A stretch of 49,676 bases of DNA from Bdellovibrio sp. (lineage in GTDB: Bacteria; Bdellovibrionota; Bacteriovoracia; Bacteriovoracales; Bacteriovoracaceae), in contig JACPIU010000013.1 of assembly GCA_016187935.1 (NCBI GenBank), forward strand, positions 15,044-64,719, in the 5' to 3' direction. Positions within the stretch are counted from its first letter, which is position 1; each line of letters opens with the position of its first letter. The position numbers were made by a program, and so were the translations under genes. Below, in pieces: positions 3,301 to 34,225 of this stretch. A model generated the notes under the pieces. It was not told where the DNA came from and ran no database searches. It saw nothing but the letters and a program-made list of their open reading frames with translations.

Positions 3301-3868
3301 GTTAATGGCCCGTCGGCAAAAGCGTTTGGATGCGAGAAATCGACTTTCCAGAGGAAGAAAGAAGGGCGCGCATGATGATGAATCAGGTGCTGATCGACTT
3401 AGAAAGGACCTTGCCCATATCAATGGCGCCCATGCCGTTTTTAAAACACTCAAAGGTGGTATCTATGCGGGAGGTTCGGCAGGAGGAATGGCCGGCATTT
3501 CAGCACCCATCGATCCCAATGCTGGCAAAGGATCAGGAAGTGGTAGTGGGAACATGGATGCCAACCTTAGTGATGGACACGGTGGTGATGGACATGATGG
3601 TGAAGGAGCAACTGAAGGACAGCGCCCAAGCTATGCTGGTAATTTGTTTGGAGACAGTTATAACGGCGGCGGAGGGGCCGGCGGGGCCGGCGGAACTCTT
3701 GGTGCCACGGCCACCGGTTTATCACAATATGACGAAGATAATCTTCTGAGAGATTCTCAGAAAGGCAAGAATGAGCAAATTGATCCTGATGCTGATACCA
3801 TTTTCAAGCAGATCTCCAGGGCCTATATGCATTATGGAGTTCCGCGCTTGCTTAAGAAGAAGAAGTAG
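326..3868 (+). CDS. Large exported Cys-rich, Gly-rich protein of unknown function
   Basis: 1180 residues. Residues 1-23 form a typical signal peptide (MKNLF, then a hydrophobic run). A Cys-rich region covers about 110-391 with many CxxxC and CxxC spacings and a CCLG motif, suggesting disulfide-bonded small domains outside the cytoplasm. A hydrophobic stretch at about 680-711 could cross a membrane. The C-terminal part from about 960 to 1130 is rich in Gly, Ser and Asp, and the end is a KKKK tail. Short GSGSG-type linkers recur near residues 153, 405, 530 and in the tail, which suggests a multidomain surface or secreted protein. I do not recognise the family. The start has a good Shine-Dalgarno sequence. 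The gene overlaps the end of convergent serB by 17 bases. Confidence 0.85.
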   Translation: MKNLFMYLVLLSCGFIGANVTVAHDLANHPDHHVVAGDTVYKAPVHWNPPEYPLGTGFLAPTINHPSGYYPPVQPFKGPITPFNPEKTDIGNYDFSIMADQWHGQEYSQCNPNVEHACPGGHECVEENVDGNYLCPGRPSQVSVTDLDEIQCGSGSGITTKCGTGPQSTPCIADSRWRPNSKIFSTSTPWDDLAGGTGHWTPQDGPHRLCYFEHNCILSTHLSPRKLCKQDCMNACLGQVNPPSHQDCVNHCENQCNHSYIKTTCTYASPCLSSHTQARPSKTAQGQTISETFGCTDHYQCSSGLCLETDPGNGQPKVKACVPFAVCRRPCKKIGETLGGGDFCCLGLWDGGNGVCTDGTIFPSMPEEIEWTVDQASCQPNMYELRCATADCNPPQRVKVLSSIGSGSGTIAGADNIARYELVSKQDAPRGRERVAISTGSDDKTIVARSVWQFERFMYSAEWLWSQAGSPIFDESSNGGKANGYWLMHIKAKDLGKKMAELRKVVDNRYIKRLAEIEEDQQTLMSAQLGSGSGSGDTVGSTGNAASSIEYLKLMAKNHQALAELDAEKFGNYTILSALANGSGGLSEVHNHPSMLDTNDKYHTYGDYGEHGGPLYCEAWFPHCWFSTSLCGTRFDKNKVCVIERQKVNLDGVTNMLDPLYPMAILNLGGVNGQGQTIPTGVMIGAAVAVGMYNPVAGLAVLGVMALINYFKGWDIPVKREDWKNDKNKFVDGIYAHFQGYANQDLEGGNAAETAYNKAHKVHNISGMYQRDELKLLLLDLNIPEADFWSQLDCIEVSKSKDSAFDAKCKNLYPDWPLTTEKLHDLALKKSAESGVIHTLKYAAAGGSQYPTGGASYVKDYFGVMLDYLALYHQRAAEMHNEVAACLTRMAISVETPLAGGASVGQGSTNIATSAAPVIDTTIPTVSTPVACTGAACNSAIDQSNMNGINFGINGYNPGGVADGGGSFGTGDWNGRGSFGTGRMGGGTLNDTLMARRQKRLDARNRLSRGRKKGAHDDESGADRLRKDLAHINGAHAVFKTLKGGIYAGGSAGGMAGISAPIDPNAGKGSGSGSGNMDANLSDGHGGDGHDGEGATEGQRPSYAGNLFGDSYNGGGGAGGAGGTLGATATGLSQYDEDNLLRDSQKGKNEQIDPDADTIFKQISRAYMHYGVPRLLKKKK

Positions 3869-13276: not shown

Positions 13277-14782
13277 ATGTGCGGTGTCGCCGGCGTTATT
13301 CAAGTTCCCTCTACTTTAGCTGTTTGTGAAATTGCAGCTCCTTTATCCTCTGCCTCTTTAGTGGCCTATCAAGCACTTCTGATGCTGCAGCATCGCGGAC
13401 AAGATGGCGTGGGAATGGTGAGCTATGATCAAGAATGTGGACGTTTTTTTGAGAAAAAAAAACTGGGGCTCATTGCTCAGGCCTTCGAGCGTGATGATTT
13501 TGAGAGATTAAGTGGCGCTATGGCCCTGGCCCACACTCGTTACGCCACTGTGGGTGGCGACGGGATGCGGGATTTACAACCGATGTTGGCAGGTGTGCCT
13601 TTCGGTGTCACCCTGGCGCATAATGGTAATCTCGCCAACTTTTTTGAGTTGGCGGATGAGATTCAAAGTAAATATAAAATAAAATTTTTGACTCACAATG
13701 ATGCCGAAGTTTTGCTGCAACTATTTTGTTACTTTATGTCGTCGACCCATCAAGGCAAACTAACTGGTAATTTCAGTTTTGAAATGGCCGTTTCTTCCAT
13801 GAAACAAGTCGTTCAACATGCCAATGGTTCCTATTCCGTGGTGGGAATAGTGGCGGAGGGCGGATTATTCGCGCTCCGTGATCCCCATGGCATTCGTCCG
13901 TTACTGCTTGGGCGTAAGGTGGAAGATAATCGGACTACCTATCTTTTTGCTTCCGAGTCATCGGCCATCCAATTTTTGGGCATGGAAGTCATTAAAAATT
14001 TGGCCCCGGGCGAATTCATGCTGATCACACCTGATGGTCAAATCATGTCCGCTGATGTGGGAGGTAAAGAAGCTGCCCATTGCATGTTCGAATGGGTGTA
14101 TTTCGCCGGTGCCGAATCGGTGCTTGAAGGACAATGTGTCTATAGCGCGCGTTTGGAGTTGGGAAGACGTTTGGCCAAACAAGTCACCAAGAGAAGCACA
14201 GACAGCTTTGATGTCGTCATGCCGGTGCCCGATACCGGTCGTACCGCGGCGGGTGCTTTAGCGGAATGTCTCAAAATCCCTTATCGCGAGGGATTATTAA
14301 AAAATCGTTATGTGCAAAGAAGTTTTATTTTAAATGGGCAATCCAAGCGCGAATTGGCGGTTGGTCTGAAACTTATTCCCATCGTGAGTGAAATTAAAGG
14401 AAAGAGAATTTTGTTGGTGGATGACAGTATTGTCCGTGGCACCACTTCCAAAAAAATTGTCAATTTATTGAAAATGCATGGGGCCAAGTCAGTCAGTCTG
14501 GCCTTAACCTGTCCTCCCATTAAACATCCCTGTTTTTACGGGATAGATTTTCCAGTGCAAGGTGATCTTCTCATGGCCAACTTAAGTGAGAGTGAAGCCG
14601 CCCGCTGGATTGGAGCGGATGAAGTTTTTTTCACTGAGTGCAGTGATATTGACGGGGCCATGAACGGGCTGAAACTTTGCAAAGGCTGTCTGACAGGAGA
14701 GTACCCCACCAATTTGAAAAAATGCCGGAGCTTCGCCCTTCAGCGTGGACGTGTGCGTGAAGCAGAGGAGAAGAGGGTATGA
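13277..14782 (+). CDS. purF: Amidophosphoribosyltransferase
   Basis: 501 residues. It makes 5-phosphoribosylamine from PRPP and glutamine, the first step of purine synthesis. The N-terminal glutaminase begins MCGVAG with Cys2 as nucleophile and has LQHRGQDGVGM and LAHTRYATVG. The C-terminal phosphoribosyltransferase half has the PRPP loop LLVDDSIVRGTTS near 380. Cys269 (CMFE), Cys419 (PCFYG), Cys468 and Cys471 (CKGC) sit where the Bacillus-type enzyme holds a 4Fe-4S cluster; no propeptide precedes Cys2. The ATG has AAGGGG upstream. It leads the operon and its stop overlaps purE (ATGA). Confidence 0.96.
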   Translation: MCGVAGVIQVPSTLAVCEIAAPLSSASLVAYQALLMLQHRGQDGVGMVSYDQECGRFFEKKKLGLIAQAFERDDFERLSGAMALAHTRYATVGGDGMRDLQPMLAGVPFGVTLAHNGNLANFFELADEIQSKYKIKFLTHNDAEVLLQLFCYFMSSTHQGKLTGNFSFEMAVSSMKQVVQHANGSYSVVGIVAEGGLFALRDPHGIRPLLLGRKVEDNRTTYLFASESSAIQFLGMEVIKNLAPGEFMLITPDGQIMSADVGGKEAAHCMFEWVYFAGAESVLEGQCVYSARLELGRRLAKQVTKRSTDSFDVVMPVPDTGRTAAGALAECLKIPYREGLLKNRYVQRSFILNGQSKRELAVGLKLIPIVSEIKGKRILLVDDSIVRGTTSKKIVNLLKMHGAKSVSLALTCPPIKHPCFYGIDFPVQGDLLMANLSESEAARWIGADEVFFTECSDIDGAMNGLKLCKGCLTGEYPTNLKKCRSFALQRGRVREAEEKRV

Positions 14783-15534
14783 AACAACCCAGAGTCTTAG
14801 TCCTTTTTGGATCAAAAAGCGATGCCGGGGTCTATCAACCATTGATGGAATCACTGTCACCAGAATTTAAAACCGATTTGGCCATCATTTCAGCGCATAG
14901 AAATTATCGTGAATTAGAACAACGTTTGAATCAGCGGGATTTTGATATGGTGCTGGCGGGGGCCGGGCTTTCTGCTCATTTACCAGGAGTGGTGGCGGCC
15001 CAATTTGATGGACCAGTGATCGGTATTCCTGTGGCCTCGCGCTTAGGCGGATTTGATGCTTTTTTATCGATCTCCCAGATGCCAAAAGGTGTTCCGGTAC
15101 TGGCCACTTTTCCCGAGGCCAACTGGCAAGCGGTTTCTTTTCTAAAAAATTGCATCAAGAAATCTTTTGATTGTAAGGTCAATTTAGTTTGCAAGGATCT
15201 CTACTGGCAATACGAATATTCGCGCAACTTTTTTGTTGAGGCCCAAAGTTGCGCTCAGGAATTGAAAATCACTTGGAATACCGCGGATGCTCCTCGTACC
15301 GATTGTCTGAATCTATTTGTGATTACCGATCAGCTTGATTTCAAACCACTCATGCCATCTTTCACTGCAATATATATCCCCATGATGGAACCGATCAAGG
15401 CCAAATCCCACACTCGGGCGCTGGATATTTTTGAGTGGGCCAGAATCAATGGTCCCTGGGTGGGATTGAACAATTTTGTGAATGCCGTGAGAATGGCGGA
15501 CAAAATATTTAAGTTGCAGGAGGTGGTTCTATGA
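14779..15534 (+). CDS. purE: PurE-type carboxyaminoimidazole ribonucleotide mutase/carboxylase, extended
   Basis: 251 residues against about 160-170 for usual PurE. The core (1-140) has FGSKSD, ISAHRNY, AGAGLSAHLPGVVAA, PVIGIPV and LSISQMPKGVPVLA. It converts N5-CAIR, or AIR plus CO2, to CAIR; which one cannot be decided because no purK is seen here. Residues about 145-251 form an extra domain that I do not recognise, ending GLNNFVNAVRMADKIF, which loosely echoes the PurE C-terminal helix. The start overlaps the purF stop and the stop overlaps the purC start. Confidence 0.9.
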   Translation: MKQPRVLVLFGSKSDAGVYQPLMESLSPEFKTDLAIISAHRNYRELEQRLNQRDFDMVLAGAGLSAHLPGVVAAQFDGPVIGIPVASRLGGFDAFLSISQMPKGVPVLATFPEANWQAVSFLKNCIKKSFDCKVNLVCKDLYWQYEYSRNFFVEAQSCAQELKITWNTADAPRTDCLNLFVITDQLDFKPLMPSFTAIYIPMMEPIKAKSHTRALDIFEWARINGPWVGLNNFVNAVRMADKIFKLQEVVL

Positions 15535-16685
15535 AGCAGTACCCTCTTATTCACCGAGGTAGTGTCAAGAATATCCACGGTGATTACAGCAAATCGCCGC
15601 TCTTGTTTCATTTTTCTAATCGCTATTCTATTTTTGATTGGGGTGAGATGCCCGACCATATTGAGAAAAAAGGCGAGGCCCTGGCGGCCTTTACCACGGG
15701 CTGCTTCACCATGCTGGAGCGTCCTAATGTCTGGCGAGAGTTAGTGCACCCTTTGGCATGCTCATTGAGTCCGGCAGAGCAGGCCTGGCTGGAGCAGTTT
15801 GAAGCGGCGGGAATGTCTCACCACTTCTTAGGGAAATATAATCTAACCGGCCAAAAGCTTGCCTCCCATGTGAGCACTGATTGTATCGGAGTGCTGCCTT
15901 TTCAAGTATTGAGACCTCTTTTTCAAGCAGGCAGTTATGATTACACTCTCTACCACAAAAAACCACAGCGATGCCTGATTCCTCTCGAAGCCATTTTTCG
16001 TTTTGCTCTTCCTGAGGGGAGCAGTCTTCTGAAGCGGGTAGAAAACCCCGAAGTGCTACAGGATTTAAATCTTAACTCTCGCCCGGTTGCAGGAGATAAG
16101 TTTGAAAAACCTTTGGTGGAATTTTCCACCAAATTGGAACCCTCTGACCGCATGTTAAGAAAACGGGAAGCGGAAGAGGTAAGTGGTTGCAGTCCAAGGG
16201 AGTTTGAGAATTTGAATATCCATATTCGGTTGCTGGCCTATCTTCTGCGCGGGGCCTTTCGTAAGCATGAAATTGATTTACAAGACGGAAAATTTGAATT
16301 CGGCTTCGGTGAGAGCAACGCTGGACGGGGCCGTGAAATTATCCTCTTGGATGCCATTGGTCCGGATGAGTTGCGGCTCGAATATCATGGCATGCAACTT
16401 TCCAAAGAAGTCTTACGCCGTTTTTACCGCAAAACAGCTTGGTATCAAGAGTGGGAAAACTTTAAGAAAAAGAATTTTGAGAATCAAAGCAATACGGATT
16501 GGAAAAAAGACGCCAGGGAAGTGATCGGTGCCCCACCTGCCTTGCCTCATGCCTTTAAGAAGAATATCAGCCATATGTATTGTGCTCTGGCCAATGTGGT
16601 GGCCGATGGAGCACAAATCAATCGGCCCTTTCCTGAAGTGCCGGACTTAACCCAAGTTGCCCGCGGATTACAGGAGTTTGCATGA
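15531..16685 (+). CDS. purC: SAICAR synthetase, long form
   Basis: 384 residues; common bacterial PurC proteins are about 235-300. The N-terminus RGSVKNIHGD resembles the RGKxK start of the family, and LQDGKFEFGFGE with EIILLDAIGPDELRL matches the FKLEFG...DEFSPDxxR region that binds ATP and aspartate. It ligates aspartate to CAIR. The middle part (FSNRYSIFDWGEMPDHIEKK, with about 100 added residues) is divergent from the E. coli type. Its place between purE and purD fits. It overlaps both neighbours by 4 bases. Confidence 0.88.
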   Translation: MKQYPLIHRGSVKNIHGDYSKSPLLFHFSNRYSIFDWGEMPDHIEKKGEALAAFTTGCFTMLERPNVWRELVHPLACSLSPAEQAWLEQFEAAGMSHHFLGKYNLTGQKLASHVSTDCIGVLPFQVLRPLFQAGSYDYTLYHKKPQRCLIPLEAIFRFALPEGSSLLKRVENPEVLQDLNLNSRPVAGDKFEKPLVEFSTKLEPSDRMLRKREAEEVSGCSPREFENLNIHIRLLAYLLRGAFRKHEIDLQDGKFEFGFGESNAGRGREIILLDAIGPDELRLEYHGMQLSKEVLRRFYRKTAWYQEWENFKKKNFENQSNTDWKKDAREVIGAPPALPHAFKKNISHMYCALANVVADGAQINRPFPEVPDLTQVARGLQEFA

Positions 16686-17968
16686 AGGCCTTAGTATTGG
16701 GCAGTGGCGGAAGAGAACACGCCTTGGCCCTTGGGCTAAGGAAGTCTTCACTTATTAGCGACGTTTATGTACACCCTGGTAATGCCGGCCTATTTTTAAG
16801 TGGAGGACTGAGTCCGCTATTTTCTCTTTCACCCGCCCATGATTCAAAAGAGGGTGTGGCCATAAGGGCGCGTGAACTGAATGTTGATTTGGTGGTGATC
16901 GGGCCGGAAAATTTGTTGGCACAAGGTTATGCTGATTTCTTATCTGCCCAGGGTTTTAAAGTTATTGGGCCTAGTCAAGCGGCGGCACAGTTAGAGAGTT
17001 CCAAGGGATTTGCCAAAGCTTTTATGGAGCAATATGGCATACCTACTGCGACCTATTTTACCACTCAATCTCAAAGCGATGCCGAGCAATTTATAGATAA
17101 GGCGCCATTTTCGATCGTGGTCAAGGCCGATGAGTTGGCCCAAGGCAAGGGTGTTATTGTCACTGATAGCAAGGCCGAGGCCAAGGCCGCGGTGTGGTCG
17201 CTTTTATGTGACAAAAAAAACTTTAATTCGGAGAAGCTGGTTTTAGAGAGACGACTGAGGGGCTACGAGACTTCCGCCATCGCGCTGGTTGACGGGGATT
17301 CATTTTACATTCTCGGTTATGCCCAAGATTACAAACGTGCTTTTGATTCTGATCAGGGACCCAATACGGGCGGTATGGGAGCGGTTCTGCGGCCAAATTG
17401 GCCGGGAGCTTCGATTCAACGTCAAAGCGAAGAGATTTTTCAGAAAACTTTGGATGGTTTAAAGGATCGCGGTCTTTCCTATCAAGGATTTATGTTCTTA
17501 GGTTTGATGATTGAAGATGATCAGGTCTTTTTGTTAGAGTATAACGTGCGCTCGGGCGATCCTGAAACCCAAGTTCTCATCCCAAATTTGAAAGTGGATC
17601 TGGGTGTGCTTTTTGTTCATGTGTTAGAAAAAAAATTGCATAAACTAACCCACAATACTCCCGAGCAATGTTTCGTCCATGTGGTTCTCGCCTCGGGAGG
17701 CTATCCTGACATAGCAGGGCGTGGCCTAAATTTGAAGCACCCCATTTCCATTCCCCATGATCTTAAAACGTCCGATCAAGTGACGGTTTATTATGCCGGA
17801 GTAGGGATGGGGGGCGATGGCCGTCTAGTGAATAAAGGCGGACGGGTTTTAGGTCTTACGGCCTGTGGACGAAATACGCAAGAGGCCAGAGAAAAAGTAT
17901 ATGATGCCTTAACAAAAATAAAATTAGATGGCAGTTTCTATCGCACAGATATTGGACAGGAGAAGTAA
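16682..17968 (+). CDS. purD: Phosphoribosylamine--glycine ligase
   Basis: 428 residues, normal for PurD. It joins glycine to phosphoribosylamine using ATP. Family features: MKALVLGSGGREHALALGL at the start, VIGPENLLAQGYAD, ATP-grasp residues VVKADELAQGKGVIV, GPNTGGMGAV and LEYNVRSGDPETQVLIP, then GRVLGLTACG in the C-terminal domain. The start overlaps the purC stop. The stop TAA is directly followed by the GTG of purN. Confidence 0.96.
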   Translation: MKALVLGSGGREHALALGLRKSSLISDVYVHPGNAGLFLSGGLSPLFSLSPAHDSKEGVAIRARELNVDLVVIGPENLLAQGYADFLSAQGFKVIGPSQAAAQLESSKGFAKAFMEQYGIPTATYFTTQSQSDAEQFIDKAPFSIVVKADELAQGKGVIVTDSKAEAKAAVWSLLCDKKNFNSEKLVLERRLRGYETSAIALVDGDSFYILGYAQDYKRAFDSDQGPNTGGMGAVLRPNWPGASIQRQSEEIFQKTLDGLKDRGLSYQGFMFLGLMIEDDQVFLLEYNVRSGDPETQVLIPNLKVDLGVLFVHVLEKKLHKLTHNTPEQCFVHVVLASGGYPDIAGRGLNLKHPISIPHDLKTSDQVTVYYAGVGMGGDGRLVNKGGRVLGLTACGRNTQEAREKVYDALTKIKLDGSFYRTDIGQEK

Positions 17969-18649
17969 GTGCAGACGCGCAAAGTGGCAATTATGGCCTC
18001 AGGAGATGGTACCAACGCCGAGGCCATTATGCGGTGGTGTCACAAATTTCCCCATTTGGCGCAGGTGGTGGCGGTACTCAGTGATCATGAGGACGCCTAT
18101 GTTTTAAAACGTGCTCAAAACTTTGCTGTGCCCGGACTTTGCATGCCATATCCCAAATTGAAAATTGAACGTGCGGCCCACGAGGAAAAAATGGCACAGG
18201 CCTTAAACGAATTTGGCGCCGAGTGGATTTTCCTGGCAGGCTTTATGCGTATTCTGGGAACGTCTTTTTTGAAATATTGGAAATGTCAGGGCGATCTCTA
18301 TCGTGTGGCCAATATTCATCCTTCACTTCTCCCTGCCTTTAAGGGAGGCAATGCCTATCAAGAGGCCTTTGATGCGGGCGTAAAAATTTCCGGTGTCACG
18401 ATTCATTTGGTCACCGAAGCCTTGGATAATGGGCCGATTGTTTTGCAAAAAAGTTTTCCTCGCGCTCAGAAAGATGATTTTAATACATTTAAGGCCCGCG
18501 GACGTTCATTGGAAGGGCCGTTGTGGCATGAATTTTTAGAATCGTGGAGTCGTGGTCATTTGCTCGCGCATTCGACTCCCGGTGGCCAGTGGCAGATTTG
18601 GAATCAAATGGCAATTACAGGAGGTAGCGATGCAGTATTTTCGCTATGA
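17969..18649 (+). CDS. purN: Phosphoribosylglycinamide formyltransferase
   Basis: 226 residues, GTG start abutting the purD stop, with AGGAG five bases upstream. It transfers a formyl group from 10-formyl-THF to GAR. Motifs: VAIMASGDGTNAEAIM, FLAGFMRIL, NIHPSLLPAFKGGNAYQ with the catalytic Asn and His, and GVTIHLVTEALDNGPIV with the catalytic Asp. Slightly longer than the usual 190-215 residues through a C-terminal tail. The tail overlaps the purL start by 20 bases. Confidence 0.95.
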   Translation: MQTRKVAIMASGDGTNAEAIMRWCHKFPHLAQVVAVLSDHEDAYVLKRAQNFAVPGLCMPYPKLKIERAAHEEKMAQALNEFGAEWIFLAGFMRILGTSFLKYWKCQGDLYRVANIHPSLLPAFKGGNAYQEAFDAGVKISGVTIHLVTEALDNGPIVLQKSFPRAQKDDFNTFKARGRSLEGPLWHEFLESWSRGHLLAHSTPGGQWQIWNQMAITGGSDAVFSL

Positions 18650-21600
18650 ACTTTATCATCGCCATCATCCCGAGACCGCCGGCCCATTGCCAGCATTTGA
18701 GCGCTGGTTTCGGGCGAAAAAACAGGGTGTGATTAAAGCTGTGACCGTTGGCGAATTGTATTTTATCGCTTCTGAGGGGCGCGATTGTCTCAACAAAGTT
18801 GAGACAGCATTTTGTGATCCCGTACTTTGCACCACGATACCTCCTCATTACGATATGGCGGTTCAGATTACTTTTCGTCCCGGAGTGACTGATAATAAGG
18901 GACAGGCCGCCCGTCAGGCCCTGCAATTAATCGGTGTTGATGCTCAGGTTCGATCCGGTCGGATTTTTTTAATATCCGGAGATGTTTCCTCTTCAGAATT
19001 GTCGCGTGCCGCCCATGGTCTGTTGGCCAATCAACTTCTGGAAGAATGCCAAGTGTATACTCGCCTTGAGTTTGAAAAATTGGCAAGAGAGGTGGAAATC
19101 ATCGGGCCTGTGAGCAACCAATTGAGTGCCAAATTGGTTCAGCAAATTGATCTGACCAAAAGTGATCAGGAATTACTCGAACTTTCAGGCAAAAACTGTT
19201 GGGCCCTGGAGTTGACCGAAATCAAAGTTATTCAAGCACAATTTAGAGATGAACAATATTTGTCCCACAGAAAAAGTTGTGGTCTCCCCTCAAATCCTAC
19301 CGATGTTGAGATGGAAATTCTGGCCCAAACTTGGAGTGAGCATTGCAAGCATAAAATTTTCAGCGCCAAGATTCATTATTGCGAGGGCCCAGATGTCGGA
19401 CATGCTTTAGGCACGATGGAGATCAACAGCGCTTTTCGAACATTCATCAAAGGCGTGAGCGAGGATATCATTGCCGAAAGAAAAATTGATTGGGCGGTAT
19501 CATTGTTTAAAGACAACGCAGGCATTGTCCGTTTCGATAAAAATATAGATATTTGTGCCAAGGTTGAAACCCACAATAGTCCTTCGGCGCTTGATCCCTA
19601 TGGCGGTGCTTTGACCGGAATCTTGGGTGTCAATCGGGATATCTTAGGTACGGGACAGGGGGCCCGGCCTATTTTAAATACGGATGTTTTTTGTGTTGCT
19701 CAGGAAAAAAGCTCTGCCGATGAAATTGATGCCGATGCCATTCTTCTCTCTGAATTACCCAAAGGTTTGCTCGCACCCAAGCGTATCTTGGAAGGTGTCC
19801 ATAAAGGCGTTGAGGATGGTGGCAACAAGAGTGGTATTCCCACTGTGGGCGGGGCCATTTATTTTCATCCTTCATATGCCGGCAAACCTTTAATCTACGT
19901 GGGCACGGTTGGTGTCTTACCTCCTGAGATTAAGGGAAGACCTAGCGCTAAAAAAGAAATATTACCAGGCGATCTCATCGTCATGGCCGGTGGGCGAGTG
20001 GGGCGTGATGGGGTTCATGGCGCCACCATGAGTTCATTAGAATTGGAAGAGTCCGTGCCCTTGTCCGTGGTGCAAATTGGCGATCCCATCACTCAAAAAC
20101 GCCTGCAAGATTTTCTTTTGGAAGCGCGGGACCTTGAACTCTATCGCACCCTTACTGATAATGGTGCCGGAGGACTAAGCTCAAGTGTCGGCGAAATGGC
20201 GCAGTTATCTGGTGGGGCCGAAATTGACGTCAGTAAATGCCCCTTGAAATATCAAGGTCTCATGCCTTGGGAAATTATTGTGAGTGAGAGCCAGGAACGC
20301 ATGACCTTTGCTGTGCCTGAGGAGAGCTGGTCGGCCTTCCATGAATTAAGCTTGAAACGTGGAGTGGAGGCCTCGGTTTTAGGGACGTTCACCCATAGCG
20401 GCTTTTTTGATGTCAAAGTTGGGACCGAAATCGTGGCCTCACTACCATTATCATTTCTGCATGAAGGACTCCCACCCATGGATCTGAAGGCCTATTGGAA
20501 TGGGGGCGATGCTTTGCAATCGGCCTTCAAATGGCGTTCGGTGCAAATTCCTTCGGCACCGATGGTGGATTTTAAGCAAACCTTGCAACGCCTTCTCTCT
20601 CGTCCCAATATCGCTTCCAAGTGGCCGTGGATTACCTGCTATGATCATGAAGTCCAGGGTTCCACGGTGATTCGTCCCATGGGCGGAATGAATGGAGAGG
20701 CCCCGCATAATGCCGGGGGAGTATGGTTGCATCCCCATGGTGGTGAACTGCAAAATGGTGTCTTGGTTTCCATGGGCCTGAATCCCCGTTTGGCACTCTT
20801 GGATCCGTATATAATGGGTGTCTGTGCCGTGGATGAGGCCATCCGCAATGCCATTGTTCATGGAGGCAATCCGGACTTTACGGCGATCTTGGATAATTTC
20901 TGCTGGCCCGATCCTTTACAACACGCTCGCCTGGAGAGTCCAGGACCTGGAGATCAAAAATTAGGGATGTTGGTGCGAACCTTGACAGGACTCAAGGATG
21001 CTGCCCGCGCCTTAGGGGTTCCCATGATCAGTGGAAAAGATAGTATGAAAAATGATTTCAAAGGGCGGCATGAGGATGGCCGGGATATAACCATAAGCGC
21101 TCTGCCAACTTTGTTAATTACTGCCATTTCGCGTTTTGATGTTGGTCGAAGCATTTCTCCCGCCCTTCCTGGCCAGGGCATTTGTCTCTACCTTGTGGGC
21201 CCCTTGCGTGGGGCCTTAAGTGCTTCCGAATTTGCCGAAGTTCATGGTGATTCGATACGAGATGAAAATCTATTATGGCAAATGCTGTTAAATCTGAAAG
21301 ATGTGCGCGCCCAATATGAAGCTATCCATCGCGCCATCAGTGAAGGAGTGGTGGTTAGCGCCCACGATCTCTCCGATGGTGGACTGGCCGTGGCCCTAGC
21401 AGAGATGCTTCTGCATTCGGATGACCTTGGCCTTGAATGTACCCTGCCTGACTCGATTGATGCCAATGTTCTTTTCGGAGAAGGTCCCTTTAGAATTCTC
21501 TTGGGGGTCCCCAGTGAGAAACGGGCCGACTTCGAATCACGCCTGCACAGTGCTCAGTATTTGGGGCAAACTGCGCCGGGGCACGAATTGAAGATTCACG

Positions 21601-21674
21601 ATCAAGCTGGCCCGGTGCTTTTGCAGATGACCGTCCCTGAGATGAGGTACTTTTGGCAAAGGAGTCGAGCATGA
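18630..21674 (+). CDS. purL: FGAM synthase large chain with fused PurS-like domain
   Basis: 1014 residues from the ATG at 18630, which has AGGAGG five bases upstream; a longer frame back to 18552 lies inside purN and lacks support. It makes formylglycinamidine ribonucleotide. The region around residues 50-150 (AVQITFRPGVTDNKGQAARQ) looks like PurS, joined to a PurL core with AQTWSEHCKHK, KVETHNSPSALDPYGGA, GRDGVHGATMSS and GLAVALAEM. No glutaminase domain follows; PurQ is a separate gene. So the size is between small PurL (about 740) and the fully fused enzyme (about 1300). Confidence 0.94.
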   Translation: MQYFRYELYHRHHPETAGPLPAFERWFRAKKQGVIKAVTVGELYFIASEGRDCLNKVETAFCDPVLCTTIPPHYDMAVQITFRPGVTDNKGQAARQALQLIGVDAQVRSGRIFLISGDVSSSELSRAAHGLLANQLLEECQVYTRLEFEKLAREVEIIGPVSNQLSAKLVQQIDLTKSDQELLELSGKNCWALELTEIKVIQAQFRDEQYLSHRKSCGLPSNPTDVEMEILAQTWSEHCKHKIFSAKIHYCEGPDVGHALGTMEINSAFRTFIKGVSEDIIAERKIDWAVSLFKDNAGIVRFDKNIDICAKVETHNSPSALDPYGGALTGILGVNRDILGTGQGARPILNTDVFCVAQEKSSADEIDADAILLSELPKGLLAPKRILEGVHKGVEDGGNKSGIPTVGGAIYFHPSYAGKPLIYVGTVGVLPPEIKGRPSAKKEILPGDLIVMAGGRVGRDGVHGATMSSLELEESVPLSVVQIGDPITQKRLQDFLLEARDLELYRTLTDNGAGGLSSSVGEMAQLSGGAEIDVSKCPLKYQGLMPWEIIVSESQERMTFAVPEESWSAFHELSLKRGVEASVLGTFTHSGFFDVKVGTEIVASLPLSFLHEGLPPMDLKAYWNGGDALQSAFKWRSVQIPSAPMVDFKQTLQRLLSRPNIASKWPWITCYDHEVQGSTVIRPMGGMNGEAPHNAGGVWLHPHGGELQNGVLVSMGLNPRLALLDPYIMGVCAVDEAIRNAIVHGGNPDFTAILDNFCWPDPLQHARLESPGPGDQKLGMLVRTLTGLKDAARALGVPMISGKDSMKNDFKGRHEDGRDITISALPTLLITAISRFDVGRSISPALPGQGICLYLVGPLRGALSASEFAEVHGDSIRDENLLWQMLLNLKDVRAQYEAIHRAISEGVVVSAHDLSDGGLAVALAEMLLHSDDLGLECTLPDSIDANVLFGEGPFRILLGVPSEKRADFESRLHSAQYLGQTAPGHELKIHDQAGPVLLQMTVPEMRYFWQRSRA

Positions 21675-22408
21675 TCCATTCTCCTCGTGCCCTTATCTTA
21701 AGCGGTGATGGAATTAATTGTGAAAGAGAAACAGCGCTCGCCTTCACTCAGGCCGGCGCTCTTGCGACAATCATTCATATTAATGATCTCCTGTCCCGGC
21801 CAAGTATGCTGAGTGATTTTCAAATCTTCGCCATTCCCGGCGGCTTTAGTTTCGGCGATGAATTGGGGAGCGGCCAGATCCTGGCGCTCAAACTTAAGCA
21901 CGGTCTCAGTGATGAGTTGCAACGTTTTGTCGAAAAACAACTTCCCATTTTGGGAATTTGTAACGGTTTTCAGGCGCTGGTTAAACTCGGACTTCTCCCC
22001 GCTATTCGGGGAAAGAGTTTTGCTTTGGCCCCCAATATTCAAGGGCATTTTCAAAATAGATGGGTCACTTTAAATCCCAATCGTGCCAATCCTTCTCCAT
22101 GGCTTAGGAATTTGCCCAATAAAATGCAAATGCCGATGCGCCATGGGGAAGGCCGTTTGATATGTCAGGAGTCAAATGACAAGCAACTGTCTTCCCATAT
22201 TGCTTTGACTTATTCTGAGTATGTCAATGGTTCACTTTACAACATTGCCGGGCTTACCAATAAAATCGGCAATGTTTTGGGGCTTATGCCTCATCCTGAA
22301 GCCAATTTGTTTAACGTAAGTCGTGGGCCTGGAAATCCCGGCCTGCCTTTCGCCCATAGTGATGGATTCTTTTTGTTTAAAAATATTGTCGATTACGTCC
22401 AAGAGTAG
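21671..22408 (+). CDS. purQ: FGAM synthase glutaminase subunit
   Basis: 245 residues from the ATG at 21671; AAGGAG lies about six bases upstream and the ATGA overlaps the purL stop. It releases ammonia from glutamine for PurL. Class I glutaminase motifs: ALILSGDGINCERETALAF, AIPGGFSFGDELGSGQILA, the nucleophile Cys in LGICNGFQALVKLGLLP, and GLMPHPEANLF with the catalytic His and Glu. The GDGINCE form resembles the glutaminase part of the large fused enzyme more than Bacillus PurQ. Confidence 0.94.
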   Translation: MIHSPRALILSGDGINCERETALAFTQAGALATIIHINDLLSRPSMLSDFQIFAIPGGFSFGDELGSGQILALKLKHGLSDELQRFVEKQLPILGICNGFQALVKLGLLPAIRGKSFALAPNIQGHFQNRWVTLNPNRANPSPWLRNLPNKMQMPMRHGEGRLICQESNDKQLSSHIALTYSEYVNGSLYNIAGLTNKIGNVLGLMPHPEANLFNVSRGPGNPGLPFAHSDGFFLFKNIVDYVQE

Positions 22409-22430
22409 AAAGAGGAAAAGGAGGAAGGTC

Positions 22431-23978
22431 ATGGAACTAGTGAAAGCTAAAACAGCACTTTTAAGCGTCTATGATAAAACAGGTCTGCTTGAGTTGGCCC
22501 AGGCCTTTCGCAAATATGGTATCAAAATCTATGCCAGCGGCGGAACTTGCCAGGCCTTGCGTGATGCCAAGATTGATGTCAGTGAGGCGCAAGAATTAAC
22601 CAAGACGCCTGAGGCCTTCCATGGACGAATGAAAACATTGAGCTTCCCTCTGATGAGCGGCATTCTTTTTCGTCGAGAGGCGGAGGAAGATTGCCAAACA
22701 GTTGAGACCCTGGGAATCACTCCGGTTGATATTGTCGCGGTAAATTTTTACCCTTTTCCGCAGAAAGCGGCAGGAGAACTCCCGATTGATCTTATCGACA
22801 TCGGAGGCCCGTGTCTGCTCCGGGCCGCCGCCAAAAATTTTGCCTCCACGGTGAGTTTAGTCAGTCCTGCTGACTACACAGGCTTTGTTGCCGAGTTGGA
22901 TCGGCATAAAGGCGCCACAACTTTGGAGTTTCGAAAATCGCAGGCGCAAAAAACGTTTCAGGCCACTTGTGAATACGATAAAAGAATTTTTTCTGCCTTT
23001 GCGCCATGCCAGACTACCTCCCTTCGGTATGGTGAAAACCCCCATCAAGATGCCCAAATTTGCAAAGATCATTCCACTATGGGGATTGCTCATGCCTTGC
23101 AGTTGCAAGGAAAAGAAATGAGCTACAACAATTACTTGGATGCCGATCAGGCCTGGATGCTGATGAGTGAACTGGTTTTGCATGTTGAGGAGAAGCAGGA
23201 GAGTACAGCGCTCGTGGTAAAACATGGCAACCCTTGTGGTATTGCCACAGCGCCAAGCTTAAAAGAGGCCCTGGCCTATGCTATTGAAGGTGATCCCATT
23301 AGCGCTTTTGGTGGCATAGTGGCGCTCTCGAAAAGTGTTAATGAGGAAACGGCCCATTTATTAACCGAAAAATTTTATGAAATTATTTTGGCACCCGATT
23401 TTGATACTGAAGCACTCAAAATTTTACACGCCAAGAAAAACCTTAGGCTGCTAAAACTTGCGCTTTATTCCGCCGAGGATTTCAAAAGGATGGGCCCCAA
23501 ACATTTGTCTCTGGTGGGCGGTGAGTTGATTTGTCAGCGTGATCTGGGGGCCGACCATGAATTTAATATTATGGGCAGCAAATCCTGGCCGGCAAAATTC
23601 TATGATCAACGTTTATTTATGTTTGGCACTCTGGCCGTCAAGGCCATCAAATCCAATGCCATTTGTCTGGTGGGAAAAAAAGATAAAGGGGCCCTGGTTT
23701 TGGCCGGGATGGGGGCCGGAAATCCCAATCGCGTTTTAAGTCTGGAAGAGGCCGCTCGCCAGGCGAAACATTCCTCTTTGGGCATTCCGATGGGAGAATT
23801 GGTGCTTTTCTCCGATGCTTTCTTTCCTTTCAAAGATAGTATCGAGTTGGCCGGCGAGAATGGTATCAGCTGGATTGTGGAACCAGGTGGTTCCATTAAA
23901 GATCAAGAAGTCATCGCGGCGGCAAATTCCCTTTCGATCGGTTTGATTTTTACAGGACGAAGGCATTTCAATCACTAG
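22431..23978 (+). CDS. purH: Bifunctional AICAR formyltransferase/IMP cyclohydrolase
   Basis: 515 residues from the ATG at 22431, with an AGGAGG-type site just upstream; an in-frame start at 22323 would lie inside purQ. It performs the last two steps to IMP. The N-terminal MGS-like cyclohydrolase part has ALLSVYDKTGLLELA, YASGGTCQALRDA, FHGRMKTLS and VAVNFYPF. The transformylase part has LRYGENPHQDAQ, KEMSYNNYLDADQAW, VKHGNPCGIAT, SAFGGIVALS and the C-terminal FFPFKDSIELA. Gap to purQ is 22 bases and to purM 9 bases. Confidence 0.96.
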   Translation: MELVKAKTALLSVYDKTGLLELAQAFRKYGIKIYASGGTCQALRDAKIDVSEAQELTKTPEAFHGRMKTLSFPLMSGILFRREAEEDCQTVETLGITPVDIVAVNFYPFPQKAAGELPIDLIDIGGPCLLRAAAKNFASTVSLVSPADYTGFVAELDRHKGATTLEFRKSQAQKTFQATCEYDKRIFSAFAPCQTTSLRYGENPHQDAQICKDHSTMGIAHALQLQGKEMSYNNYLDADQAWMLMSELVLHVEEKQESTALVVKHGNPCGIATAPSLKEALAYAIEGDPISAFGGIVALSKSVNEETAHLLTEKFYEIILAPDFDTEALKILHAKKNLRLLKLALYSAEDFKRMGPKHLSLVGGELICQRDLGADHEFNIMGSKSWPAKFYDQRLFMFGTLAVKAIKSNAICLVGKKDKGALVLAGMGAGNPNRVLSLEEAARQAKHSSLGIPMGELVLFSDAFFPFKDSIELAGENGISWIVEPGGSIKDQEVIAAANSLSIGLIFTGRRHFNH

Positions 23979-23987
23979 GAGATTGTC

Positions 23988-24995
23988 ATGAGCGATTATA
24001 AAAGCGCAGGCGTAGATATCGAGGTGGGCGACCACTTTGTGGAACGAATTAAGGCCACAGTGCAAAAACAGTGTGCCCAATATCCTCGCGTTCTTCACGG
24101 GATCGGCGGTTTTGCCGCTGTCTACGACATGTTGGATGGGCGCTATTTGGTCTCTGGTACCGATGGGGTTGGCACCAAATTAAAATTGGCCCAGGAACTC
24201 GATGTCCATAATACTATCGGCATCGATTTGGTCGCCATGTGTGTGAACGATATTTTATGTACAGGTGCGCGTCCCCTATTTTTTCTGGACTATTTGGCCA
24301 TGGGAAAATTGGATTTGGGAATTTCGGAAAAAATTATTGAAGGTATCCTGGCCGGCCTTGCCACCTCCGGTGCGCCTCTCATTGGGGGCGAAACCGCCGA
24401 GATGCCGGGTATGTACCAAAATGGAGAATACGATTTGGCGGGATTTGCCGTGGGGGAGGTCAAAAAAGAACATCTGATCGATGGCGGTCAGGTGAAAGAG
24501 GGTGATGTTTTGATTGGTCTTCCCTCCAGTGGCTTTCATAGCAACGGTTATTCGCTTCTGCGGAAACTTTTGGCGTCGGAAACACGGCAAACAAAAATTG
24601 AGGCCCTGACGCCTACCAGGATTTATCGCATGGAAGTTCAGGCACTCCAGGAAATCTTTGGTCTCGGACTCAAAGGTTTGGCGCATATCACGGGCAGTGG
24701 TTTGGCGAATATTCCTCGCATCAATGATGCTTTTGATTATCACCTGACTAGCTGGCCTTCGATTAAAGACCTGCCGGATATTATGCAAAAAGTTTTTTCA
24801 AAAATGGAGCGTAATGTGGATTCGGCCTTCAGTACCTTCAATATGGGGATAGGCATGGTGGCGGTGATAGAGCGCGAACTGTATCACTCCCGCGCTTTTA
24901 AAATTCATTTTCCCTATCATCTGCTCGGGCATATTGAAAAAGGCCAAGGAATTGTGGCCTTACATTTCGAAGATGGTCGAGTCTATAAATGTTAA
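23988..24995 (+). CDS. purM: Phosphoribosylformylglycinamidine cyclo-ligase
   Basis: 335 residues. It closes the imidazole ring to form AIR using ATP. Motifs: MSDYKSAGVDIEVGD, LVSGTDGVGTKLKLA, TIGIDLVAMCVNDILCTGA, LIGGETAEMPGMY, GLPSSGFHSNGYSLLRKL and AHITGSGLANIPRI. It is the last gene of the operon. TAGGAG precedes the ATG. Its TAA stop runs into the left end of a 125-nt inverted-repeat element that probably terminates transcription. Confidence 0.96.
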   Translation: MSDYKSAGVDIEVGDHFVERIKATVQKQCAQYPRVLHGIGGFAAVYDMLDGRYLVSGTDGVGTKLKLAQELDVHNTIGIDLVAMCVNDILCTGARPLFFLDYLAMGKLDLGISEKIIEGILAGLATSGAPLIGGETAEMPGMYQNGEYDLAGFAVGEVKKEHLIDGGQVKEGDVLIGLPSSGFHSNGYSLLRKLLASETRQTKIEALTPTRIYRMEVQALQEIFGLGLKGLAHITGSGLANIPRINDAFDYHLTSWPSIKDLPDIMQKVFSKMERNVDSAFSTFNMGIGMVAVIERELYHSRAFKIHFPYHLLGHIEKGQGIVALHFEDGRVYKC

Positions 24996-30329: not shown

Positions 30330-33300
30330 TTAGCTCATGGTTTTTACCCGAAGCTCATGGGCCTGCACGATCTTTTGCACAATCTCATCAACTTTTAAAT
30401 TTCTCATGGCCTTGGGCGAGAGCTTATCTGCGCCCGCCTCGGGCAAGGTAAAGTTATCTTCGCGTAAGACAATATTCTTGTTGGCCTCGACTTCATCCAC
30501 TTTGTAAACCGGCGTGAAATGGGGAACGGTGGTTAAAACTGCGGGATACTCACGAATGATGCGAGCGATTGCCAAGACCACTTGGGTGAAACGCTCCAGT
30601 TCTGATTTACTGAACGATTCGGTGGGCTCAATCATAAGGCCGAACACTTCAGGGAAGGCCACTGTTGGAGCATGGAGGCCAAAATCCAAAAAGAGCTTGC
30701 CCACTCTTGCCATGGCCTGCGCCCGCGCAGTTCCATTTTTCTCCAATAGAGCAAAGTCCTCGGCACTCAGTGTGAGAATAAACTCATGCATGCGGGGAAC
30801 GGTTTCAGTATTGGCAGGTAAAATGGGAAAGGATTTTTTTAAATTATGCAGAAGATACACAGAAGAGAGCACTGCTACTTCGGACATTTTCTTCACTCCC
30901 TGATCGCCGAGGGCCTTAATGTAGGAGTAGGAACGGATCTTGTGGGCAAAATTTCCAAAGTGACGATGGATACTGCCAATGCTCTTGGGTGCCTTGCTCA
31001 GGGTATAAGCGCCATTTTTCAAGATGACTTGATGGCCGGGAAGATAGGGGAGAAGTTTTTCCGAAACGGCCACGATCGCATCGCCGGGCCCGCCGCCGCC
31101 ATGGGAGATAGACCAAGTTTTATGCAAGTTATTGTGAACGGCATCGACGCCCAGTTTTGCCAGGTCGATGATTCCGGCAATGGCATTCATATTGGCGCCA
31201 TCCATATAAACCAGGCCACCGACATCATGAATTTTAGCGGCGACGCGATGAAAATTACTTTCAAAAATACCTGAAGTATTGGGATTGGTGACCATAATGC
31301 CCGCGACATGGGGGCCGTGTTTTGAGAGGACATCGTCTAAAAACGGCAGATCGATTTGACCGTGACTGTCAGCTGTCAAAGTGATGATATTTTCAAAACC
31401 GGCAACTGAAGCACTGGCCGGATTGGTTCCATGCGCCGACTTGGGAATCAGAATGATATCGCGATTGTCTTTACGCTCGCGGTGATAGGCCTGAATCATC
31501 TTCAGGCCCACTAATTCACCTTGGGCCCCGGCCACTGGTTGAGTTGTAACTCCCGCCAGTCCGGTAATTTTTTTGAATTGTTCTTGTGTCTCAAAAAGGA
31601 TTTGCAGGCAACCCTGGATATCTTCTATTGGTGCCTTGGGATGAGCATGGGTAAACTCAGGCAGGCCCGCCAGATAATCGTTAATATAAGGGTTGTACTT
31701 CATGGTACAAGAACCAAGGGGATAGATATTATCATCGGGACTCACATTGAGTTCACCCAATTTCTGGTAAAAATCTTTCAAGACGTCTTGTGAAAAACTG
31801 GGAAGGTTGGCCGCCGTGGCCCTGGCATACTTCTTTGGAAGTTCAAAAGCAATTTGAGAAGGTGTTTTTCTATCTCTCAGATGTCTTGCAAAGAAGGCCG
31901 TCAAGCGGGCCACATCGGCCAGGCAATGGCGATCGGTAAAAGAGAGCATCAGGAGTTGTTTTGACCCGACTGTCGTAATGCGTGTTGTGACATCAAGGCC
32001 TGGTTGCAGGTCCTCTTTTTGGGCATTCTTGAGTAATTGTGTGAGTGAGGGACCATCTACCGAGAGAACAAATTCATTGAAAAATGCACTCTGCGGAAAG
32101 GCCAATGACAAACCCTTGAGAGCGGTAAGTTCTTCCACCGCTCGTAGCGCCATCTTCCGTCCTTCTAAAATGGCCTTCGACATACCTTGTTCTCCGCGGG
32201 CCAGAACGGCGGCGCCCGCCAGGGTAGCGATGAACGATTCATTCGAGCAAATATTTGAGGTGGCCTTTTCACGGCGAATATGTTGCTCGCGGGTGGAAAG
32301 AACCATGGCATAGGCGGGGTTGCCTTGACTATCATGGCCCTTGCCGACAAAGCGGCCGGGCGTCGAGCGGATGGCATTTTTATTATTGCTTGCATAACGA
32401 CAGCCAAAGAGTCCAAGGCCCGGGCCGCCAAAGTTGGGAGCGAGTGCAAGGTGTTGCGCCTCACCCACCAGGAGATCGGCACCAATTTTTTGTCCCGACT
32501 GGTCTTTCATCAGGCCAAAATCAGCAGGAGGGCGCAGACCTCCCGTGGCAAGCAGCATGGGATCCACAACGGTCAAGGCCAAAAGTTTATTTTCATGCGC
32601 CAAATCAGTGATTTCATCGACATTTTCCAGCAGGCCAAGGCAATTGACTTGGGGAAAAGCAATGGCGGCGAGATCGGCGTGCATGGCCGAAATTGTTTGT
32701 TTCAGTTTCGCCAGATCGGTCACACCCGTTTCGATATGAAGGGGAATCCAAATCACCCTGAGCTTGGTACCATGTGCCATAGTCTCAACCACTTCGCGAT
32801 CTTCAGGATAAACACCTTCGCTTACAATCACGGTATTATGTCCTGTGATTCGGGTGGCAGATAAGAGGCCTTCAAAGAGGGCCGTGGCGCGATCATACAA
32901 TGAGGCATTGATGGCCTCAAAGCCGGTTAACTGGGACATCATATTGGTGTAGGCCCAAAGCGAATGTAAGGTGCCTTGGCTGCGTTCGGGTTGGTAAGGT
33001 GTGTAGGCCGTGGTGAGACCGCGAATGTTGCAAACAAAAGAAACCAGGTCGGGAATTTTATAATGGGGGAGACCATCGCCAATAAAGGAAAGAGGCATGC
33101 GATTTTTTTTGCCCACCTGAGTGACATGATTCAGAAGCTCTTCATAAGATAATGCTTGACCAAGACCGACTGGTCCTTTGAATTTTACTTCTTGCGGAAT
33201 GTGAGCGAAGAGATCATCGAGGTATTTGAATCCTACCTCTTTGAGCATCTGGTCTATTTCTTGGTCGCGGGCCCCGATATAATAAGGGCGTAATTCTCTT

Positions 33301-33374
33301 TCGAGGCATTTTGGGTTGTAAGGGAGCTTGTCCATTTGTAATGTATCTTGTTGTAATTTATCTTGCGTTGCCAT
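30330..33374 (-). CDS. gcvP: Glycine decarboxylase (P-protein), fusion of GcvPA- and GcvPB-type halves
   Basis: 1014 residues from the ATG at 33374; start uncertain because earlier in-frame codons reach 33494 over the divergent rsmJ start. It decarboxylates glycine with PLP in the glycine cleavage system. The N-terminal half (to about 515) resembles subunit 1: YYIGARDQEIDQMLKEVG, YTPYQPERSQGTL, NASLYDRATAL. The C-terminal half resembles subunit 2: NIYPLGSCTMKYNPYIN, QPVAGAQGELVGL, SAHGTNPASAS and NNLHKTWSISHGGGGPG with PLP Lys752. The motif GSCTMKYNP is the subunit-2 form, not the GSCTMKLN form of classic one-chain GcvP. No gcvT or gcvH lies nearby. Confidence 0.93.
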   Translation of the reverse strand: MATQDKLQQDTLQMDKLPYNPKCLERELRPYYIGARDQEIDQMLKEVGFKYLDDLFAHIPQEVKFKGPVGLGQALSYEELLNHVTQVGKKNRMPLSFIGDGLPHYKIPDLVSFVCNIRGLTTAYTPYQPERSQGTLHSLWAYTNMMSQLTGFEAINASLYDRATALFEGLLSATRITGHNTVIVSEGVYPEDREVVETMAHGTKLRVIWIPLHIETGVTDLAKLKQTISAMHADLAAIAFPQVNCLGLLENVDEITDLAHENKLLALTVVDPMLLATGGLRPPADFGLMKDQSGQKIGADLLVGEAQHLALAPNFGGPGLGLFGCRYASNNKNAIRSTPGRFVGKGHDSQGNPAYAMVLSTREQHIRREKATSNICSNESFIATLAGAAVLARGEQGMSKAILEGRKMALRAVEELTALKGLSLAFPQSAFFNEFVLSVDGPSLTQLLKNAQKEDLQPGLDVTTRITTVGSKQLLMLSFTDRHCLADVARLTAFFARHLRDRKTPSQIAFELPKKYARATAANLPSFSQDVLKDFYQKLGELNVSPDDNIYPLGSCTMKYNPYINDYLAGLPEFTHAHPKAPIEDIQGCLQILFETQEQFKKITGLAGVTTQPVAGAQGELVGLKMIQAYHRERKDNRDIILIPKSAHGTNPASASVAGFENIITLTADSHGQIDLPFLDDVLSKHGPHVAGIMVTNPNTSGIFESNFHRVAAKIHDVGGLVYMDGANMNAIAGIIDLAKLGVDAVHNNLHKTWSISHGGGGPGDAIVAVSEKLLPYLPGHQVILKNGAYTLSKAPKSIGSIHRHFGNFAHKIRSYSYIKALGDQGVKKMSEVAVLSSVYLLHNLKKSFPILPANTETVPRMHEFILTLSAEDFALLEKNGTARAQAMARVGKLFLDFGLHAPTVAFPEVFGLMIEPTESFSKSELERFTQVVLAIARIIREYPAVLTTVPHFTPVYKVDEVEANKNIVLREDNFTLPEAGADKLSPKAMRNLKVDEIVQKIVQAHELRVKTMS

Positions 33375-33457
33375 CTCATAATCCAAATGTTGGAGGTTTT
33401 TATTTGCCCATATTTTTATCTTTTCTACTGTGAATTGACTACTCAAACGGTGATTTA

Positions 33458-34225
33458 ATGTTGCTTCAATTTTTAATTGAGATGGGTGTTTCAAAGCAGG
33501 AAATTTCTTTCATTGAAAAGTTGGCCAAATCAGTCGGAATCGAATTGAACGTCATTGAGAGTCCTCTTCAATCGGGTAGTTATTTAAAAATTGGCGAGGG
33601 CGGTGTGAGTTATTATTGCTGTGGTGCTGAGGGCCCGGCGCTCACTTTGGATTTTGTGTCAGAATACGCCGGTTTTATGAGGCAAGTCAGTAAAACTGCT
33701 GCCGGCCCACTGAAAAAGGCGTTGGGACGGGCGGTAAAGAAGGGCGACACTGTGGTTGATGCCACTTGTGGAACAGGAAAGGATTCTCTGCTCTTCTTGT
33801 CCTGGGGCCTAAAAGTCCTGGCGTATGAACGTCATCCCCTCATGTTTGTCTTGTTGCAAACGGCCTGGCAAAAATTCATTGGCACCTATCCAGAGCTTGT
33901 GGATAAATTTGAGCTGGTTTTTGGTGATGTTCGCGGTGGTGTGGAGAAAATGCGCCAAAAAAATATTTCGGTTCTTTATTTTGATCCTATGTTCAGTGAA
34001 GGGCCTGGCCGGCGGCGCAGTTTACCGCGTCAGGAGATGGTGGTGTTTGGTCACCTGGTTGGTGCTGATCTCGACCAAGAGTGCGTGATCCAAAGTTTAC
34101 TTGAATTACCATTGAATCGCATTGTGGTTAAACGTCCTGCTAAAGCGGCGCAATTTGCCGCGCCGGCCCCCCTGGCGACTTTCCAAGGCAAAAGCGTGCG
34201 CTACGATCTTTTCCGCGGGCGCTAA
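33458..34225 (+). CDS. rsmJ: 16S rRNA guanine-N2 methyltransferase RsmJ-like
   Basis: 255 residues. RsmJ methylates G1516 of 16S rRNA (E. coli numbering). Motifs: VDATCGTGKDSLLFLSWG (SAM binding), VLAYERHPLMFVLLQTAW, and the catalytic-loop VLYFDPMFSEG, then RIVVKRPAKA near the end, all as in the YhiQ/RsmJ family. The length matches. GGTGAT precedes the ATG at 33458; a second ATG at 33482 is an alternative. It is divergent from gcvP, and the ADC-like gene follows. Confidence 0.9.
   Translation: MLLQFLIEMGVSKQEISFIEKLAKSVGIELNVIESPLQSGSYLKIGEGGVSYYCCGAEGPALTLDFVSEYAGFMRQVSKTAAGPLKKALGRAVKKGDTVVDATCGTGKDSLLFLSWGLKVLAYERHPLMFVLLQTAWQKFIGTYPELVDKFELVFGDVRGGVEKMRQKNISVLYFDPMFSEGPGRRRSLPRQEMVVFGHLVGADLDQECVIQSLLELPLNRIVVKRPAKAAQFAAPAPLATFQGKSVRYDLFRGR

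Follow-up and report, generated by a model that had tools for sequence, protein, structure and literature searches.

A One-Chain Glycine Decarboxylase in Bdellovibrio

The DNA examined herein (the window) is a stretch of 49,676 nucleotides from a Bdellovibrio sp. contig, JACPIU010000013.1. On its minus strand, positions 30330-33374 encode a protein of 1014 residues in which GcvPA and GcvPB, the two subunits of glycine decarboxylase (P-protein), are joined in a single reading frame. The parts of this gene are as follows.

30330..33374, minus strand: one-chain glycine decarboxylase (GcvPA-GcvPB fusion), 1014 aa; open frame, matched by both NCBIfam subunit models
31872..33293, minus strand: GcvPA-like half, residues 28-501; NF001696 match at 32-496, superposes on 1wyt_A
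31806..31871, minus strand: linker, residues 502-523; lacks the (I/L)FExSxxGR N-terminal motif common in split GcvPB
30441..31805, minus strand: GcvPB-like, predicted catalytic half, residues 524-978; NF003346 match at 505-971, alignment with 1wyt_B over 511-968
31680..31715, minus strand: GSCTMKYNPYIN motif, residues 554-565, read in the sequence
31119..31121, minus strand: Lys752 codon, aligned with the HLNLHKTF lysine of solved P-proteins
30357..30422, minus strand: C-terminal extension, residues 985-1006, present only in the new one-chain family by column occupancy in the alignment

The open frame spans 30330-33494, and the ATG at 33374 yields the 1014-residue product. A longer version with a TTG start would reach 33494 and overlap a divergent gene. 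In a near relative (L003), a stop breaks the frame upstream of the equivalent ATG, and therefore the TTG start is unlikely. Counted from the ATG, the coordinates are exactly those of the original prediction, whose proposal of a GcvPA-GcvPB fusion is confirmed by matches above the cut-offs of both subunit models and by recurrence of the frame in other genomes. The C-terminal extension comprises 22 columns that are filled in at least 90% of 27 new-family rows and in at most 10% of the 26 classic and 46 split rows. An AlphaFold2 model predicts a helix at 995-1013, with block pLDDT values of 84-94 across 981-1014. An Rfam scan of the window gave no match at gathering scores.

The GcvPA model NF001696 matches residues 32-496 with 416.7 bits (cut-off 364), and the GcvPB model NF003346 matches residues 505-971 with 501.7 bits (cut-off 441). 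In contrast, the one-chain model TIGR00461 covers residues 33-940 with 525.8 bits, below the required 859.2. A cyanobacterial control chain of the classic one-chain type (L057) reaches 1554.7 bits on TIGR00461 and passes the two subunit models as well, with 430 and 497 bits. Thus, passing both subunit models does not discriminate split from classic proteins. The Pfam domains in the window protein are GDC-P and GcvP2_C.

Predicted Fold and Function

A structure model computed from 36 sequences has a mean pLDDT of 87.0 and a pTM of 0.90, whereas a model from eight sequences was poor (pLDDT 57.3) and was set aside. The better model superposes on the one-chain Synechocystis enzyme (4lhd_A) over 873 residues, with a Z score of 38.4 and an rmsd of 2.6. 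Its GcvPA half (model residues 30-499) superposes on the Thermus A subunit (1wyt_A) with a Z score of 30.3 and an rmsd of 1.9, and its GcvPB half on the Thermus B subunit with a Z score of 23.4 and an rmsd of 4.3. The GcvPB half contains the lysine of the HKT motif and a glycine-rich HGGGGPG segment, both of which align with the human, Escherichia coli, Synechocystis, and Thermus enzymes. The region around Lys752 aligns with 6i33, 6i34, 9uz6, 4lgl, and 1wyt_B, and the residue is invariant in two alignments (13 of 13 and 36 of 36 rows). Lys752 is thereby matched to the lysine of the HLNLHKTF motif, which is the PLP-binding residue of solved P-proteins.

The host genome (4.4 Mb in 48 contigs) has a single match to PF02347, the P-protein family, along with one gcvH match and one gcvT match, adjoining folD. 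With the lysine motif, the fold, GcvT, and GcvH all present, the function looks ordinary. By homology, the GcvPB-like half would bind PLP via Lys752, decarboxylate glycine, and load the aminomethyl group onto the GcvH lipoyl arm, and the GcvPA-like half would serve as a noncatalytic partner that completes the pocket. Methylene-tetrahydrofolate would next be produced by GcvT. The gene very probably encodes a working one-chain P-protein of a third, deeply separate lineage, where “third” depends on rooting because a root placed inside one of the groups would change this wording.

Two other regions of the window are mentioned here as separate observations. A run of genes at 13277-24995, on the opposite strand and about 5 kb from the P-protein gene, reads like purine synthesis when the genes are named by eye. 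Purine synthesis and glycine cleavage both use one-carbon folate. At 326-3868, a frame of 1180 residues has a signal-like start and several GSGSG runs, again as judged by eye, and perhaps encodes a secreted protein.

Occurrence of the New Family

Among 129 genomes of the host's class, all of which carry one family label, 124 have a match. The protein is full length and in one frame in 101 of these genomes (including that of the window), whereas 22 have pieces. Six genomes are without a proper match: five have none, and one (G115) has only a weak paralogue. Of the pieces inspected, some are located where a contig ends (G102, L180-L181) and others have frames broken away from the boundary between the two halves (G141, L176). 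We considered whether an assembly or sequencing error could have joined two genes. Nothing was found in favor of such an error, and recurrence of the identical single frame throughout the class and beyond it refutes this explanation and leaves it a negligible probability. The best named relatives among the best 80 matches listed are single-frame proteins, 54-57% identical, from Bacteriovoracaceae, Bacteriovorax, and Bdellovibrionales records; judged by these names, the host would belong to class Bacteriovoracia.

A sample of 154 genomes from the phylum includes 38 of the host's family, all with the one-chain protein or pieces of it, and two of a further family with a full-length single-frame protein. 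The same sample, at a cut-off of 1e-100, contains 72 genomes with classic-like matches, 26 with matches of the split type, and 16 with none. The new one-chain, classic, and split types therefore coexist in one phylum. One genome of this phylum (G412) has two full-length classic-type P-protein matches.

The new family also occurs outside the phylum. Single-frame relatives with 51-53% identity are present in Planctomycetota NORP49, Opitutae, and Puniceicoccaceae records among the best 80 matches listed. The new one-chain protein is carried by 6 of 113 genomes around a Puniceicoccaceae center genome and by 3 of 99 around a Planctomycetota center genome, with the centers included and one of the latter three cut by a contig end. 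In both samples, a wide score gap separates the carriers (at least 973 bits) from everything else (at most 582 bits). On one out-of-phylum contig (L036), the P-protein gene is preceded by frames that, by eye, are gcvT- and gcvH-like. The gcvT-like neighbor on a second contig (L038) is 35% identical to the gcvT-like frame of the first, and comparison of L036 with Bacteriovoracia contigs gave, the P-protein itself aside, weak matches alone (24-25% identity). At least two of the out-of-phylum contigs do not appear to be Bacteriovoracia contamination, and transfer of the gene between phyla is likely. For exchange between Bacteriovoracia and the other phyla, neither direction is supported, with values of 0.478 and 0.754 at the relevant nodes.

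Ten candidate regions with long frames (L142-L151) from both out-of-phylum samples were opened for other fusions, and all proved to be split; two of these (L145, L148) seemed long merely through an overlapping frame. A long match in a phage-labeled record (MT837837.1) was also rejected as a fusion, as it consists of two adjacent separate genes of gcvPA and gcvPB size (442 and 487 aa). This record is named Bacteriophage sp. and may be bacterial DNA. Similarly, four IMG/VR contigs (L112, L113, L114, L115) carry a P-protein gene, three as classic-size single frames and one split; these may represent either metabolic genes carried by viruses or bacterial sequence wrongly filed as viral. Plasmid genes annotated as gcvPA and gcvPB (NZ_CP099998.1 and NZ_CP061502.1) share only about 26% identity with the window protein and are perhaps a paralogous pair with another function.

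Comparison with Classic and Two-Subunit P-Proteins

The new family shares with classic GcvP (TIGR00461; 4lhd, 6i33, 9uz6) the single chain, the order of A then B, the superposable fold, and the catalytic lysine motif. However, it lacks insertions that classic chains have near residues 521, 943, and 954 (at 954, 24 columns in one block), ends in a C-terminal extension of its own, falls well below the TIGR00461 cut-off, and has a median identity to classic chains of 32.3%. With the two-subunit enzyme (NF001696 plus NF003346; 1wyt/1wyu), it shares passage of both cut-offs, several indels, and Tyr560 of the GSCTMKYNP motif, but it differs in being one chain, in lacking the (I/L)FExSxxGR start, and in a median identity of 35.9%. 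Classic chains are 36.6% identical to split proteins by the same measure, and new-family members are 55.3% identical to each other. The closest of 51 split rows reaches 40.0% identity to the new family.

When columns are called at an 80% threshold (27 new-family, 26 classic, and 46 split rows), the new family agrees with split proteins against classic chains in 14 columns, split and classic proteins agree against the new family in 15, and new and classic chains agree against split proteins in 2. Indel blocks common to new and split proteins and absent in classic chains, among them residues 220-228, 459-464, and 789-795, outnumber those filled only in new and classic chains, which are three short blocks at residues 686, 687, and 856-857.

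The original prediction had proposed that both halves carry motifs of the separate-subunit type rather than of the single-chain enzyme. This holds for some residues and indels. The profile scores do not follow it: at 417 and 502 bits, the window protein is no nearer to the NCBIfam split models than is the classic control (430 and 497 bits). By median identity, the new family is as far from the split subunits as the classic chain is and furthest from the classic chain itself, and the two one-chain families have departed from a split-like state to a similar degree. The split-like motifs, including GSCTMKYNP, are best read as retained states, and thus they are no proof of an independent fusion. 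Motif counts fail as such proof also because the split-like states are symmetric (14 versus 15 columns).

A Separate Fusion in Candidate Division FCPU426

A further GcvPA-GcvPB fusion was encountered in one genome, in a candidate division FCPU426 record (DAIDGV010000024.1; L049:7977-10733), where 919 aa are encoded in one frame. Like the new family, it is a one-chain fusion of A and B without the N-terminal motif of GcvPB. Unlike the new family, it scores as split subunits do (744 and 584 bits) and nests among split sequences, beside Deinococcus in the 100-protein tree. Given these scores and this position, it is best read as a separate fusion.

The strict pattern (I/L)FExSxxGR, which marks the N-terminal arm of GcvPB, is found in 36 of 51 split proteins, several of the misses being visible variants, and in none of the 46 new-family, 80 classic, and one FCPU426 proteins. 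The loss of this arm was considered as evidence that the new and classic families arose by one fusion and was discarded in this role, as the separate FCPU426 fusion is without the arm too. In 12 of 51 split pairs, gcvPA and gcvPB share a frame and only one stop codon separates them, so that a single change would fuse the two; the sample favors such pairs because its genome contigs were chosen by long joined matches.

Phylogenetic Position

Alignments of both halves were built for 100 proteins, comprising 27 of 44 complete new-family, 26 of 80 classic, all 46 complete split, and the one FCPU426 protein, and later for 82 proteins (16 new, 14 classic, 51 split, and 1 FCPU426). IQ-TREE LG, PMSF, drop-one-family, and constrained runs used 15 new, 16 classic, 30 split, and 1 FCPU426 protein. 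Fused frames shorter than 880 aa were excluded, as were split halves shorter than 420/460 aa (100-protein set) or 400/440 aa (82-protein set) and the duplicates L001, L002, L120, and L130.

In the 100- and 82-protein trees, the new family and the classic family each form a fully supported clade, whether the A half, the B half, or both (AB) are used. Membership of the new family in the classic GcvP clade is rejected by all graft tests. Placement inside this clade costs at least 174 log-likelihood units at 12 graft points (AU at most 1.4e-4) and at least 183 at three in a second test (AU below 1e-44). A position of both halves inside the classic clade would have spoken against the original prediction of an independent fusion; with that position rejected, the prediction stands insofar as the fusion lies outside the classic clade.

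The support that the original prediction called for, halves branching within the two-subunit clades, was not obtained: nesting among split sequences was not found in the FastTree LG trees of either set or in the C20 PMSF tree, which leaves an independent fusion as a possible reading. Instead, the new and classic families group together in FastTree LG trees of 100 proteins (A 0.92, B 0.954, AB 0.999) and of 82 proteins (A 0.829, B 0.899, AB 0.998), in IQ-TREE LG trees for A (62.9) and AB (99.6), and in the C20 PMSF tree (aLRT 94.2), for which the guide trees held the new-plus-classic clade and may bias PMSF-based tests. A weak exception is half B in IQ-TREE LG, where the new family sits beside one split sequence at 54% and does not group with classic chains.

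Long-branch attraction can create false groupings of long-stemmed lineages. The new family and the classic family both have long stems (about 0.64-0.87 under LG), and for this reason attraction between them was tested. With the classic rows removed, the new family falls beside Legionella (A 89, AB 88) or beside Nitrosomonas and a Chloroflexi record (B 89; C20 AB 18). With the new family removed, classic chains fall beside L179 in A, AB, and C20 AB, and beside that same Legionella in half B (95). In the 82-taxon set, the attachment points of the two families, each tested alone, differ by 16 of 52 split taxa for AB, by 0 for A, and by 3 for B. The corresponding difference is 0-4 in 14 simulations on a tree with the families as sisters (sister tree) and 2-4, with one value of 20, in 14 simulations on a tree that holds them apart (separate tree).

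Simulation on the separate tree produced a false sister grouping in 7 of 14 replicates (early tree) and 18 of 50 (finished tree), with support of at least 0.998 in 0 of 14 and 0 of 50. Simulation on the sister tree (early tree) recovered the grouping in 14 of 14 replicates, with such support in 8 of 14. Under LG+C20, an early unfinished search placed the separate tree ahead by 10 units (-98688 versus -98698), whereas its continuation placed the sister tree ahead by 8, and the finished trees (seven iterations each) favor the sister tree by 15 units, with AU values of 0.615 for the sister and 0.385 for the separate tree, so that this mixture model does not tell the two apart. The AU value for the separate tree is 0.119 on the early mixture trees, which are not the best ones, and 0.331 (LG) and 0.147 (C20) in constrained fast searches, which are noisy in that one constrained tree scored below a free one. 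The AU test rejected nothing among these fast searches, and its lowest value, 0.0623, belongs to a sister tree under C20.

One Ancient Fusion or Several

Overall, the evidence leans slightly toward one shared fusion, and we weigh a separate fusion against a fused ancestor shared with classic GcvP almost evenly, with the shared ancestor given a little more. Under the latter scenario, to which we assign a probability just above even, both one-chain families descend from one ancient fusion and the new family kept split-like states where classic chains changed. The grouping of the two families across FastTree LG and C20 PMSF trees agrees with this scenario, as do the three short blocks filled only in new and classic chains and the lead of the sister tree in the finished mixture-model trees. 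Moreover, support as high as that observed for AB never arose in simulations on the separate tree, but did so in more than half of those on the sister tree. However, artefact alone joins the families in a substantial share of separate-tree simulations, the AU test retains the separate tree throughout, IQ-TREE half B lacks the grouping, and the early unfinished mixture search preferred the separate tree. Only two columns unite new and classic chains against split proteins, and without the classic rows the new family shifts in the AB tree.

When tested one at a time, the two families take different AB positions, which fits an independent fusion. Under this reading, split gcvPA-gcvPB genes gave rise to the new family apart from classic GcvP; we regard this origin as somewhat short of an even chance. 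The FCPU426 protein provides a clearly separate precedent, and the split pairs held apart by one in-frame stop, even in a sample that favors them, point to an accessible route. Indels common to new and split proteins and absent in classic chains would also fit, but such sharing, of indels as of residues, can reflect retention. Against an independent origin, the families are joined in every tree that contains both except IQ-TREE half B, and none of the 51 split rows is specifically close to the new family.

A bolder proposal is that the P-protein has fused at least three separate times, in classic GcvP, in the Bacteriovoracia lineage, and in FCPU426, in every case with loss of the N-terminal arm found on free GcvPB, as if this arm only held the free subunits together and became useless in one chain. 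We put this forward tentatively and consider it less probable than not.

Implications

Passages of two reports (PMC12827605, PMC10052474) describe the P-protein as two subunits. In a search of the open-access literature, judged by titles and the beginnings of abstracts, none of the papers listed describes the new lineage.

The window protein falls short of the one-chain cut-off but passes those of both subunits, and surveys of split versus fused P-proteins may consequently misfile a whole bacterial group. One-chain P-proteins are commonly handled as one family; with the new lineage, this widespread enzyme gains a third one-chain branch. If the fusion of this lineage was independent, then repeated fusion accompanied by the same loss of the GcvPB arm would constitute a natural experiment on why subunits fuse.
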